36,158 bases of DNA, taken from assembly GCA_013415665.1 (NCBI GenBank), contig JAAEEQ010000003.1, positions 1-36,158 on the forward strand, given 5' to 3'. Positions 10,720 to 19,673 of the stretch are shown here, piece after piece (position 1 is the first letter of the stretch; every line of letters begins with the position of its first letter). A model generated the notes under the pieces. It saw nothing but the letters and a program-made list of their open reading frames with translations, had not been told where the DNA came from and made no database searches. The position numbers and the translations under genes are program-made. Source of the stretch: Methanomicrobiales archaeon (GTDB lineage Archaea; Halobacteriota; Methanomicrobia; Methanomicrobiales; Methanomicrobiaceae).

Positions 10720-11613
10720 TCAGCCCTGTATCTGTCCGAGAAGGTTATTTAATACTTCGTCGACATGTTTCCACGTCGTATTTTCTCCCGAAGACCCCTG
10801 TTTCCGGATGATGAACGGCCTTCCTTCGTCGCCCGCCTTGCGCATTTCGGGATCCATCGGGATTCCGCCGAGGAACGGCACGCCGAGCTCCTCTGCAGCC
10901 TTTTTCCCGCCGCCTTTGCCGAAGAGGTCGATCTCCTCACCGCAGTGCGGGCAGATCATGCCGCTCATGTTCTCGATGACGCCCAGGACCCGGAGACCAA
11001 TCTTTTCCACGAAGTTGATCGCTTTGCCGGAGTCGAGAACGGCAACATCCTGCGGCGTTGTGACGATGACGGCACCCTCGATGTTGGGTGCAAGCTGGGC
11101 GACCGTCAGGACTTCGTCCCCGGTGCCGGGAGGCAGATCCACGACGAGATAATCCAGCGATCCCCAGGTGACATCCTCGAGGAACTGCCGGATTGCCGTG
11201 ATCTTCATCGGGCCCCGCCAGATCACCGGCGTGTTGCGGTCGGGAAGGAGGAACGCCATCGAAACGACGCCGAGCGTCCCGGTAATGCGCACCGGATCGA
11301 TATGCTTTCCGTCGAGAGACGAGAGTTTTTTGTCCTCGATGCCCATCATCTTCGCAATGCTCGGTCCGTGAATGTCGAGATCAAGAAGTCCCGTGTTGTA
11401 TCCCCGGTTCGAGAGTGACATTGCAAGGTTCGCAGCGACGGTACTCTTTCCGACGCCGCCCTTTCCGCTCAGGACAAGGATAACGTGCCTGACATCCATA
11501 TTCACCTTTTCCGGGAGGCCTGCTGCCGCCTTGCGCGGATCCTCGCAGTTGTTTGCGGTCGCGCAGGATGCACATTTACCGTTGCATTCCTGATTCGGGG
11601 TTTTTCCTGCCAT
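10720..11613 (-). CDS. Mrp/NBP35-type iron-sulfur carrier ATPase
   Basis: 297-residue P-loop protein that assembles or carries Fe-S clusters in the cytoplasm. The deviant Walker A is GKGGVGKST (50-58), Walker B-like DLPPGTGDE lies near 159-167, and a C-terminal CPHC (Cys221, Cys224) is the bridging-cluster site of the dimer. An N-terminal C-x3-C-x2-C-x5-C (Cys10, 14, 17, 23) resembles the extra cluster site of NBP35. AGGAG (11622-11626) precedes ATG 11613. It is followed directly by the coupled small gene. Confidence 0.93.
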   Translation of the reverse strand: MAGKTPNQECNGKCASCATANNCEDPRKAAAGLPEKVNMDVRHVILVLSGKGGVGKSTVAANLAMSLSNRGYNTGLLDLDIHGPSIAKMMGIEDKKLSSLDGKHIDPVRITGTLGVVSMAFLLPDRNTPVIWRGPMKITAIRQFLEDVTWGSLDYLVVDLPPGTGDEVLTVAQLAPNIEGAVIVTTPQDVAVLDSGKAINFVEKIGLRVLGVIENMSGMICPHCGEEIDLFGKGGGKKAAEELGVPFLGGIPMDPEMRKAGDEGRPFIIRKQGSSGENTTWKHVDEVLNNLLGQIQG

Positions 11614-14938: not shown

Positions 14939-16162
14939 TCACGCCTTTTCGTGCCGTGAAAACCTCCCCTCAATCTTTTCGGGGAGGATGATCTCCTTGA
15001 AACATTTTTCAAAATACCGGTCGGTCATTCCCGCAATGAAGTCCCTGACCAGCACCACAGGGTCCGTGCCCTCACGGTACCGCGGTGAAACCCACGGCTG
15101 CCTGATAAAATCCTGATATATCAAGGAAGGTTCCCTGCCGGTCTCGATATCCCCGAGAAACGTTGTGAAAAGGGTGCGATACATCCCAACAATTTTGCCC
15201 CGCTCGGCGGTAAGGGCGGGATGCTCGTAGATATGATCGTTGCTGAACCGGCGGAGATCGAAAAGCGCCCGTGCCACTTCGGCAGAATACCGAATCTGCG
15301 GCTCTTCACCGCAATCGCTCGAGCAGAGGAGGTCCCAGATAAGGGTGTCGACTATCTCGCGGTTGGTATGCCCCAGCACGGCAGCCCAGCCGGCACCGGC
15401 AATATCCTCGCTCCCGATAAGCCCGACCTCGCGGGCGTCCTCCAGATCCCTGCCGATATAGGCAATCGTGTCGGCAAACCGGACGACGCACCCCTCGAGG
15501 GTCATCGGGTGGATATCGCCGCCCGCGGCGACCGTATCGAATCGCCTGTCGAACGATGCGAAATCCTCGCAGGGTTCCGGCTCCAGGACATTTTTTAACG
15601 ATTCGCCGTTGTGGCAGAGGATCCCGTCGAGCACCTGGAGGGTCAGATCCGTCTCTTCGATGCGGTCGAGGAATGCAACGCTCTGGGCATTGTGAAAGAA
15701 CGGGCCGCATCCATGCTCCATGCAGAGCGAAGAGAGGCATTGCTCGCCAAAATGGCCGTACGGCGCGTGGCCGATATCATGGCCGAGGGCAATGGCCTCG
15801 ATGCAGTCTTCATTCAGGCCGAATACCCGACCGATGGTCCGTGCAATCTTCGAAACGAGCTGCACATGCAGGACCCGGTGGGTGATGTGGTCATTCTTCA
15901 CCAGATAAAACACCTGGGTCTTGTCGATATAGCGGGTATATGCCCTGCTGTGAAGAATGCGATCCGCATCACGCGTATACGGCGACCGGATATCCTCGGG
16001 TTTGCTGTTATGGCGGCGCATGGCCATTGCGGCCGTCTGGGCACACGGGGCAAGGAGCCGTTCCGTCCGCTTCAGCCGTTCCCGGACACGCCGCTCGATA
16101 TGCTGCCGTGCCATGCAGCCCCCGGATTCCATATGGTAAAAGGTCTGCAAGGGCTGTGGCAT
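14939..16162 (-). CDS. dGTPase-like HD-domain triphosphohydrolase
   Basis: 407-residue HD-superfamily protein of the dGTPase type, which removes triphosphate from dNTPs. The segment RSPYTRDADRILHSRAYTR and the metal ligands His95, His128-Asp129 (ALGHDIGHAPYGHFGE) and a later Asp (RFADTIAYIGRD) match the family. It lies 24 bases behind an HTH regulator gene and probably shares its transcript. ATG 16162 is used; ATG 16114 with GGGGG upstream would give a 391-residue form starting MARQHIERR and is a real alternative. The role may be dNTP pool control or, as for bacterial dGTPases, antiviral nucleotide depletion; the latter is speculation. Confidence 0.88.
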   Translation of the reverse strand: MPQPLQTFYHMESGGCMARQHIERRVRERLKRTERLLAPCAQTAAMAMRRHNSKPEDIRSPYTRDADRILHSRAYTRYIDKTQVFYLVKNDHITHRVLHVQLVSKIARTIGRVFGLNEDCIEAIALGHDIGHAPYGHFGEQCLSSLCMEHGCGPFFHNAQSVAFLDRIEETDLTLQVLDGILCHNGESLKNVLEPEPCEDFASFDRRFDTVAAGGDIHPMTLEGCVVRFADTIAYIGRDLEDAREVGLIGSEDIAGAGWAAVLGHTNREIVDTLIWDLLCSSDCGEEPQIRYSAEVARALFDLRRFSNDHIYEHPALTAERGKIVGMYRTLFTTFLGDIETGREPSLIYQDFIRQPWVSPRYREGTDPVVLVRDFIAGMTDRYFEKCFKEIILPEKIEGRFSRHEKA

Positions 16163-16186
16163 AAGGTTGTCGTCGCTGCCGCTTCC

Positions 16187-16459
16187 TCAGGGGTACACGG
16201 CCGCTTCGTCAATGGGTGCGGAAACATCCCGGATCTGGTATAAGACCTGCCGGGCGTCACGGAAATTGAATTTTTCCACAATCAGGCCGTGTTTCTTCAG
16301 GCGACCGATGGCAAAACGTATTGTCCGGGGAGCTATGTCCGCCTGCTGGGCGACTTCCTTGAATGTCCGGGAACGCCCGTCTTCCAATACATCCAATACA
16401 AGCCGTGCCGACGGCGGAATGGAACCCGGCCCATCGTTCACAGTGTTAACGGGGCGCAT
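16187..16459 (-). CDS. Winged-helix transcriptional regulator
   Basis: 90-residue MarR/ArsR-like winged-helix protein. The helix-turn-helix is about residues 32-60 (TFKEVAQQADIAPRTIRFAI, then GRLKKHGLIV), followed by a short wing. No ligand domain or metal-binding Cys is visible, so it may act as a simple repressor. It precedes the dGTPase-like gene on the same strand. Two similar 15-bp palindromes cover its start codon region, so autoregulation is likely. A TATA-like TTAATC (16483-16489) would make the transcript nearly leaderless. Confidence 0.85.
   Translation of the reverse strand: MRPVNTVNDGPGSIPPSARLVLDVLEDGRSRTFKEVAQQADIAPRTIRFAIGRLKKHGLIVEKFNFRDARQVLYQIRDVSAPIDEAAVYP
16436..16450. 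promoter_or_regulatory. Candidate operator, copy 1
   Basis: GTTCACAGTGTTAAC, an imperfect palindrome (GTT-AC/GT-AAC half-sites), lies just inside the HTH coding sequence. It matches copy 2 at 13 of 15 positions, with start positions 32 bp (about three helical turns) apart. Confidence 0.55.
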
Positions 16460-16467
16460 GAGAAATT

Positions 16468-16482
16468 GTTCACGGGGTTAAC
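16468..16482. promoter_or_regulatory. Candidate operator, copy 2
   Basis: GTTCACGGGGTTAAC lies between the HTH start codon and its TATA-like element, where a bound repressor would block transcription. It also sits in the short gap upstream of the divergent MBL-fold gene, so both directions may be controlled. Confidence 0.55.
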
Positions 16483-16555
16483 GATTAAGGTGCCGGTTTT
16501 GTCCTTGCTGCCATCAAACCAAGGACTATCAGCCATTCGTGCATACGGCTGTACC

Positions 16556-17395
16556 ATGCGCTATACCGTTCTCGTTGACAACACCGCCCTCATCGATCGG
16601 TATTTTCATGCCGAACCGGGCTTTTCGCTCTGGCTCGAAGACGGCGACACCCGGATTCTCTTTGACACGGGCTATTCGGACATATGCATCACAAATGCGG
16701 CAAAAATGGGAATCCCACTCACCACTGCCGAGTATGTTGTTCTCTCCCACGGGCATGTCGATCACACGGGCGGGTTGGCCCCGCTCCTCCGGCTCTTTGC
16801 CGAAACGGCACGGGAAACGGGAAATCAAGCCCGCCCGGCTCTCCTGGCCCATCCGTATGCCATATCCCGGAGAGTGCTCGCAAAGGTAGGGGACGTCGGC
16901 TGCGAACTGCCCCCCGCTCTCCTTGCCGCGCAGACCAACCTGACGCTCTCCGAAAAGCCGGTCTGGATCACGGACAACTGTGTTTTTCTCGGAGAAATCC
17001 CGCGTATTTTTCCTTTCGAGGCATGGGAGCCCCGGAGCATGCTGCTTACAGAGAACGGCTGGGTGCCGGACACGGTTCCGGATGACAGCGCAATCGCCTG
17101 CCTGACCGGCGACGGCATGGTGCTCATCACCGGGTGCGCCCATGCGGGCATCTGTGCGACGGTGGCATATGCAACCGAGATCTGCGGCGAGGACCGGATC
17201 GCCGATATCATCGGTGGATTTCACCTGTACCGGGCGGGCGCCGAACGCATCGCAAAGACAGCGGCGTACCTTGCCGAAATACGACCCGCGGCCGTCCATG
17301 CCTGCCATTGTACGGGCTTTGCGGCGCTGCAGGCACTTGCAGGCCGGGTGAACCTGGCGGAGACCGGCGTCGGAATGCACTGCAGTTTTTCCTGA
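16556..17395 (+). CDS. MBL-fold hydrolase, COG1237 type (methanopterin-pathway synthase-like)
   Basis: 279-residue metallo-beta-lactamase-fold protein. The metal motif is SHGHVDHTGG (His65, His67, Asp69, His70), followed by ITGCAHAGIC and a C-terminal HACHCTGFAA. This pattern is that of COG1237, whose M. jannaschii member MJ0301 makes the 7,8-dihydropterin-ribofuranosylaminobenzene phosphate precursor of methanopterin. The same activity is plausible here but not provable, since COG1237 paralogues are numerous. ATG 16556 starts exactly at the conserved beta-strand. It diverges from the HTH-dGTPase operon. Confidence 0.85.
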   Translation: MRYTVLVDNTALIDRYFHAEPGFSLWLEDGDTRILFDTGYSDICITNAAKMGIPLTTAEYVVLSHGHVDHTGGLAPLLRLFAETARETGNQARPALLAHPYAISRRVLAKVGDVGCELPPALLAAQTNLTLSEKPVWITDNCVFLGEIPRIFPFEAWEPRSMLLTENGWVPDTVPDDSAIACLTGDGMVLITGCAHAGICATVAYATEICGEDRIADIIGGFHLYRAGAERIAKTAAYLAEIRPAAVHACHCTGFAALQALAGRVNLAETGVGMHCSFS

Positions 17396-18527: not shown

Positions 18528-18550
18528 CTGCGGCAGCGCAGGGTTTTTTT
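18528..18550 (+). terminator. Intrinsic terminator after LysE gene
   Basis: CTGCG (18528-18532), loop GCAG, CGCAG (18537-18541), then GG and seven T. It starts at the base after the stop codon, and its T-run supplies the stop codon of the convergent radical SAM gene. Confidence 0.7.
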
Positions 18551-19673
18551 AGGGGATGACCTCGCACCCCTGGAATTTTTCATGGAAAAAATCGCGGGCT
18601 TCGATGCGCCCTTCATCGATAAGCGCCCTGATCTCGGGCAGCACCGCCGTCAGGGCGGCATGAAGGTGACAGACCGTGCTCCTCACAAGGCTCCGGCCTT
18701 CAGGAGGCCACGGACGGATGATATTGGAATACAGGCACCTGCCGCCGCAGAAATCGCGGATATCACAGCTCGTGCACTCCCCGCCGACCGGCACTACCCG
18801 GATGTTGCGGGGATCGGCCGAAGCGATATGCCCGACATACCAGTCACGCATTCCCACCATGCAGGGGCAGGGAGCGATGCTGCCATCCGTCATGATAGTG
18901 TAATTCGCATGGCCGGAACCGCACCGCAGGGGGCTTGGCCGGTCATGGAGAAGATCGTCGACCGGGACGAGGAACGGGTACCAGCGCAGCACCCGCCCCT
19001 CCCGGCGCATCGCTCCGACCCAGGCGTCGACGAGGCGTGAAATGCCGGGATTGTAGGAGCCGTGCACCCATGGGGCGAAAGCCCGGGCATAATAGTCCTC
19101 GGCAAAGTTCGCATCGATCTGCCAGTGTATCGACGAAAAGGGGAAGAGATCGTTGCCCGAGAGGTACCGCACCGATGCTTCGATATCCGTCGCTTCCGCC
19201 ACCGTCATCCGGGCGATAAGTTCTCCTGAAAAACCGGCCCCGGCGCAATGGCGTGCACCGGCGATGACCTTTTTGAAGGTGCCCGATCCCCGGTACCGGT
19301 CGGTGACGGCTTCAGGGCCGTCGACTGACAGGAATATCGTGTCAAACCGGCGCACCAGATCGGGGTCGAGCCCGGAAAGAAGCGTCCCGTTTGTCTGAAG
19401 GAGGAACCGCCGGACAGGCGCTTCTTCGAGGATCTGCTCGACAAGATCCATCCGCAGGAGCGGTTCCCCGCCGTAGAACATCAGCGCGGCATCGGGATCC
19501 CGTGCGAGAAATGCATACAGCAGGTCGGGATCAACGGCCAGGTCGGAGGGGAGGGTGTCGTCCACCGCTACCGCGACTGCCGTGGTGTCGCATCCGCCGC
19601 CGCTCATGTCCTTGCCCCTGCAGTAGGTGCAGCAGAGATTGCAGCTGTCGGTCAGTATCAGATTCCAGAACAC
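18549..19673 (-). CDS. Radical SAM/SPASM enzyme, putative peptide-modifying (AF1059-like)
   Basis: 374-residue radical SAM protein with the CxxxCxxC cluster motif at Cys11, Cys15 and Cys18 (DSCNLCCTYC), the MFYGGEPLL SAM-binding motif, and a C-terminal SPASM domain (RCGSGHANYTIMTDGSIAPC, then CTSCDIRDFCGGRCLY) that can hold two auxiliary 4Fe-4S clusters. This architecture is used to modify peptides or proteins. The length and N-terminus recall the archaeal AF1059 family, but I could not run a profile to confirm it. The start is GTG 19673, since no ATG fits before the first strand. A small Cys-containing reading frame diverges from it at 19678. Confidence 0.9.
   Translation of the reverse strand: MFWNLILTDSCNLCCTYCRGKDMSGGGCDTTAVAVAVDDTLPSDLAVDPDLLYAFLARDPDAALMFYGGEPLLRMDLVEQILEEAPVRRFLLQTNGTLLSGLDPDLVRRFDTIFLSVDGPEAVTDRYRGSGTFKKVIAGARHCAGAGFSGELIARMTVAEATDIEASVRYLSGNDLFPFSSIHWQIDANFAEDYYARAFAPWVHGSYNPGISRLVDAWVGAMRREGRVLRWYPFLVPVDDLLHDRPSPLRCGSGHANYTIMTDGSIAPCPCMVGMRDWYVGHIASADPRNIRVVPVGGECTSCDIRDFCGGRCLYSNIIRPWPPEGRSLVRSTVCHLHAALTAVLPEIRALIDEGRIEARDFFHEKFQGCEVIP

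Follow-up and report, generated by a model that had tools for sequence, protein, structure and literature searches.

ZitR and AdcR are zinc-responsive repressors of the MarR family from lactococci and streptococci. According to the excerpted text of PMC6372160, they recognize one or two TTAACYRGTTAA palindromes within their own operon's promoter, and ZitR binds two imperfect TTAACYRGTTAA palindromes overlapping its own -35 and -10 boxes. Here, we report a pair of palindromes at the start of a short helix-turn-helix (HTH) gene in a Methanomicrobiales archaeon (GenBank assembly GCA_013415665.1, contig JAAEEQ010000003.1); the window, by which we mean the whole stretch of DNA analyzed, is 36,158 nucleotides long. 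We put a probability of about three in four on the reading that the pair serves the HTH gene as its autoregulatory operator and that, in the window's genus, a dGTPase-like gene was rearranged behind it and is probably partly co-repressed. No published description of this regulator was found in the literature, judged by titles and the opening lines of abstracts. The locus comprises the following features (window coordinates).

16483-16491, minus strand: TATA-like ACCTTAATC, abutting the upstream operator, probably part of a leaderless-type promoter
16468-16482, minus strand: upstream operator GTTAACCCCGTGAAC, at -23 to -9 relative to the HTH ATG at 16459
16436-16450, minus strand: in-ORF operator GTTAACACTGTGAAC, in frame, codons 4-8 of the HTH gene, encoding VNTVN
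16187-16459, minus strand: MarR-like mini winged-HTH protein, 90 amino acids, proposed autorepressor (Pfam, AlphaFold, and solved relatives)
14939-16129, minus strand: dGTPase-like dNTP triphosphohydrolase (frame open to 16162; start probably near 16129)
16556-17395, plus strand: divergent metallo-beta-lactamase (MBL)-fold gene (Lactamase_B, 1.2e-10)
18549-19673: radical SAM/SPASM protein (TIGR04084, over cut-off); the genus-mate has a homologue in a comparable position
10720-11613: Mrp-like gene

Much of what the first-pass annotation had described at this locus stands: two 15-bp palindromes that agree at 13/15 bases (GTTAACCCCGTGAAC versus GTTAACACTGTGAAC), starts 32 bp apart (16436 and 16468), and a small HTH gene (16187-16459) ahead of a dGTPase-like reading frame (14939-16162), both on the minus strand. 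Its placement of the palindromes over the start and promoter held for the upstream copy; the copy at 16436-16450 falls within the coding frame of the HTH gene and not in the promoter. The arms of each 15-mer pair at 5/6 positions around a 3-bp spacer. The window contains two exact GTTAACNNNGTKAAC matches, which are the two palindromes themselves, and five matches with up to two mismatches (1.35 expected from shuffling; 3/100 shuffles reached five), with a single match, at two mismatches, lying outside both palindromes. Exact matches across the whole draft genome (1.71 Mb, ~89% completeness) were the same two only. With up to one mismatch to GTTAACNNNGTTAAC, a single extra place was found genome-wide, on contig C109 5' of an HTH paralogue. 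Nine more places carry two mismatches each and were treated as background, because a reversed control pattern, searched equally loosely, yielded 15 per strand. Since the ~89% complete draft has no site at up to one mismatch beyond that of the HTH paralogue, it gives no evidence of a genome-wide regulon.

The HTH protein matched HTH_20 and HTH_24 in Pfam at sub-threshold scores. Its AlphaFold model (mean pLDDT, 80.2) has helices at 16-27, 33-40, and 44-56 and a two-strand wing, and is predicted to hold the winged-HTH fold of the MarR family. The N-terminal tail is modeled at low confidence, no helix of at least four residues lies beyond the wing, and the N- and C-terminal outer helices that form the dimer in full-length MarR members appear to be missing. 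By profile and by fold, the closest solved relatives are ZitR/AdcR and other MarR proteins; ZitR came first in the fold comparison, tied with many MarR rows (MarR rows at Z 10 to 12).

Conservation was assessed in two sets of HTH loci that have some records in common. The first, of 60 loci, joined 39 of the 43 places of one search with 21 picked by hand from a longer list; the second comprised the best 80 of 174 relatives in a scan of named genomes with the HTH alignment, where a motif required at least 10/12 letters near the HTH start. The motif was found at the HTH start at 49/60 hand-collected loci and at 78 of these best 80, and such a site occurred in 44/10,492 and 92/13,321 control windows of 160 bp from the same loci. 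The HTH group spans Methanomicrobiales (Methanogenium, Methanoculleus, Methanoregula, Methanocalculus, and others), the window's family grouping with Methanomicrobiaceae. A script permitting a gap of 7 to 10 nt recovered the upstream copy ahead of an in-frame ATG at 43/60 loci, window included; the gap measured 8 nt at 33 loci and 9 nt at 10. The nine bases 5' of the upstream copy include 6 to 9 A/T, often as TATATAT and in relatives also as TTTAATA and similar words; this A/T-rich stretch and an operator 8 to 9 nt before the ATG fit a leaderless promoter whose TATA box and start flank the operator. The 11/60 loci without a site are those of 10 more distant HTH homologues (L128-L137) and L154, a locus of a Methanocorpusculum-type genome where two HTH genes stand in tandem without an operator. 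In a tree of 77 columns, the window's copy and its clade fall on one side of a branch (support, 100/99), together with seven long-branched homologues without sites (L128-L134).

Within the window's HTH clade (24 loci, L099-L122), an in-ORF copy occupies +9 to +23 of the ORF at 22 loci. Both copies occur at 17/24, spaced 32 bp apart at 14 and 33 bp apart at three; another 5/24 have the in-ORF site only, and 2/24 have the upstream site only. One locus (L104) has both sites though its HTH frame seems broken. A duplicated operator tied to the HTH gene at a set spacing, as proposed from the window alone, is thus borne out by the motif at HTH starts and by the conserved 32-bp spacing. Asparagine in the 22 in-ORF copies is encoded by AAC at 42/42 codons (20/47 elsewhere in these genes) and valine by GTT or GTG at 40/40 (66/127 elsewhere), in rows that are related by descent and so are not independent events. 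This bias indicates that the DNA word, and not the protein only, has been under selection; the codon counts show an in-ORF palindrome apparently constrained as DNA and limiting codon choice. Genomes of the Methanomicrobium mobile genus carry arrays of two to five exact operator words spaced by 9 to 99 bp (L175 1501-1649, which is G018 C4:165253-165401; L181; L174), together with numerous single copies (12 in G018, 8 in G020, and 3 in G021). Two genomes of that genus have lost the upstream operator at their HTH genes (L121 and L122).

The usual operon partner downstream of the HTH gene is a cysteine-rich second HTH protein of 102 to 118 amino acids, here called c0, which adjoins the HTH gene at 77 of the best 80 of 174 loci. 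The c0 protein may belong to COG2522, for which no papers were found in the literature. Of the 40 c0 rows beside an HTH gene, 38 have two N-terminal cysteines and 37 have two C-terminal ones; two of the rows are degenerate, and another is truncated at the end of its contig. The four near-invariant cysteines lie in the motifs CDIxxCD and TICDIC. At L124 and L126, a degenerate c0 without the conserved cysteines has stayed next to an HTH copy whose operator is intact. No c0 was found beside the HTH gene at 20/60 loci, and the operator is kept at nine of these, including the window (L099, L100, L125, L141, L142, L151, L153, L156, and L158); the HTH is therefore the common factor, and the operator goes with the HTH gene.

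Other neighbors vary with lineage. In other families (L138-L157), the HTH-c0 pair is flanked by a divergent membrane-anchored OB-fold protein and by a convergent secreted protein that by eye looks phospholipase-D-type nuclease-like and is found at 65 of the best 80 of 174 loci. At five Methanoculleus-type loci (L043, L048, L049, L265, and L266), an extra exact operator lies ~100 to 150 nt 5' of an Mrp/ApbC-type Fe-S carrier gene; at L052, the sixth such locus, a comparable site is present, but no Mrp was detected. An Mrp gene lies downstream of the HTH gene at 8 of the best 80 of 174 loci. Three genomes of the same genus have another extra operator copy with similar flanks (L267 1604, L268 1585, and L270 660), downstream of which, by eye, a hydrophobic reading frame starts.

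The dGTPase-like protein matches HD and HD_assoc above gathering thresholds, and its best solved relative is PDB 2dqb (E = 5.5e-37). By-eye comparison with the start in the genus-mate makes a Met at ~16129 its likelier start. The motifs HRVLH (95-99), HDIGH (128-132), and HNAQ (157-160) and D231 are present, and the HD set H...HD...D (H99, H128-D129, and D231) aligns with 2dqb; we take these residues to be metal ligands, and from its motifs the enzyme looks catalytically intact. It falls narrowly under the curated TIGR01353 cut-off (149.6 versus 152.35 bits). A dGTPase gene match, weak in some cases, was found in 88/150 genomes of the order and 21/35 genera, and most genomes possessing the gene carry it away from the HTH gene. 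A contig scan with dGTPase peptides found no relatives, the chosen peptides probably being poorly conserved.

A dGTPase gene lies in the ~10-kb HTH locus at 8/60 loci, all within the window's family, and follows the HTH gene on the same strand at only two, those of the window genome (G000) and its one genus-mate (G005); it is convergent near the HTH gene in G002, G004, G006, G017, G023, and G024. In the second set, 3 of the best 80 of 174 loci have a dGTPase gene nearby and one, the G005 record, has it on the same strand, so most operator-bearing HTH loci are without a nearby dGTPase gene. The only other same-strand genome keeps both palindromes (L100/L185), whereas the first-pass annotation had named their absence from relatives keeping the pair as evidence against its proposal. 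On a parsimonious reading, the convergent order would be the older one, and the window's genus would have inverted the dGTPase gene and lost c0.

We propose that the mini-HTH probably switches off its own gene via the palindrome at the gene start, and autorepression by this MarR-like protein appears well supported by the conserved sites. An HTH dimer would bind each GTTAACNNNGTKAAC copy. The upstream one is flanked by the TATA-like element and, on its other side, by the probable start of transcription from a leaderless-type promoter; the in-ORF one follows three helical turns downstream, presumably on the same DNA face. Given this placement, two dimers would cover the initiation region and shut the gene down, a negative feedback loop in which binding might be cooperative. 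In the window's genus, the inversion of a formerly convergent dGTPase gene and the loss of c0 would have set the dGTPase gene behind the HTH gene, with which it is probably at least partly co-transcribed; it would thus come under the same repression. Such control of the dGTPase gene by the HTH is plausible and would be specific to this genus. Counting against the proposal are the missing outer helices of MarR dimers, the seven clade loci with a single site, the site-free homologues (L128-L137 and L154), and the limitation of the same-strand pair to two genomes.

How far repression extends to the dGTPase gene is where the readings diverge. That this gene has a promoter of its own, leaving the operator to control just the HTH gene, with the adjacency of the two being neutral, is possible but doubtful: the gap between the two genes in G005 holds, by eye, a TATA-like TTTTAAT ~32 nt before the dGTPase start, so the dGTPase gene may have its own promoter there, and the six convergent relatives presumably use independent promoters, but both genus members have the same-strand order with a short gap, and by eye the window's gap has no comparable TATA-like element at that distance. 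The opposite extreme, a purpose-built switch in which dNTPs or infection, sensed by the HTH, would unleash a toxic dNTP hydrolase, we regard as very unlikely. The intact catalytic motifs, a score of 169.8 bits against the PADLOC dGTPase model, and the two genomes in which the same-strand pair comes with both operators speak for it; yet the HTH and operator mostly occur without a dGTPase gene (3 nearby and 1 same-strand among the best 80 of 174), most genomes with a dGTPase gene carry it elsewhere, and the protein is widely under the cut-off of the NCBIfam antiphage_dGTPase model (NF041026; 111.7 versus 400 bits). Nor did PADLOC find a convincing defense gene among the seven other window proteins scanned (eight including the dGTPase). 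The HTH weakly matched Csa3/CARF models, and a radical SAM protein weakly matched viperin models; both were taken as generic domain matches. The idea of a nucleotide-pool or antiviral switch, put forward in the first-pass annotation, was accordingly set aside: the palindromes follow the HTH across the order, and its usual partner is c0, not the dGTPase. A local rearrangement seems a better description of the adjacency than an antiviral switch built for the purpose.

Two further readings concern who reads the operator and for which gene. The MBL-fold gene shares its upstream region with the HTH gene, and G005 has a divergent homologue (64% identical) in the same position, as would be expected if the operator served mainly that gene and HTH autoregulation were secondary; we consider this highly improbable, given that the upstream neighbors vary between genera while the distance from operator to HTH ATG is constant, and that the upstream site is 73 bp from the MBL ATG. 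It is also unlikely that c0 reads the operator in place of the winged HTH. Its adjacency at 77 of the best 80 of 174 loci favors such a role, but at nine of the 60 loci, with the window among them, the site persists although no neighboring c0 was detected. The window genome does retain a c0 on C109, which could act in trans there.

HTH autorepression, as preferred here, would give a clean putative regulator-operator pair across a whole methanogen order, with a motif precise enough for regulon searches. It also offers a well-sampled case of an operator word preserved within coding sequence via codon choice, and it shows a route by which an enzyme gene could come under an existing autorepressor through one local rearrangement; an antiviral system is not revealed by the HTH-operator finding alone. 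More speculatively, and unlikely on present evidence, HTH and c0 may together form a Methanomicrobiales switch, so far undescribed, that senses metals or redox state and was rewired onto a dNTP triphosphohydrolase in the window's genus. The four cysteines of c0 could hold an Fe-S cluster or zinc, and the operator before Mrp/ApbC genes, the Mrp genes downstream of the HTH, and the window's Mrp-like gene lend themselves to an Fe-S or metal reading; were it true, the nucleotide pool of the window's genus would be coupled to that signal.

The enzyme resembles the bacterial dGTPase family (2dqb, TIGR01353, and PRK01286) in its HD fold and motifs, HNAQ, and C-terminal associated domain and differs in being under curated NCBIfam cut-offs, as a divergent methanogen branch. 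Among archaeal regulators, MsvR and Lrp-type proteins gave NCBIfam matches in the HTH only, at 20.9 bits each, far under the curated cut-offs (220 and 250 bits). The likeness to ZitR/AdcR is closer: the winged-HTH core aligns (5yi0, E = 7.9e-5; 5yi1, Z 11.9, rmsd 4.3 over 70 aligned residues, tied with many MarR rows), and TTAAC-N3-GTTAA resembles TTAACYRGTTAA and is likewise doubled at its own gene start, a putative paired palindromic operator at its own promoter. The spacer here, however, is 3 bp versus 2 bp, the promoter is probably of an archaeal leaderless type, one site is within the ORF, and there is no evidence for zinc. HTH proteins of this group have ~76 to 91 amino acids (90 in the window, versus 146 for ZitR) and are without the flanking dimerization helices. 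The window's HTH has no Cys and one His and therefore cannot supply the zinc set of ZitR, to which C30 and H42 belong (residue names from the title of 5yi0). On dimerization helices and zinc ligands, the HTH thus falls outside ZitR/AdcR, and its resemblance to them, as judged by comparison, is a functional analogy.
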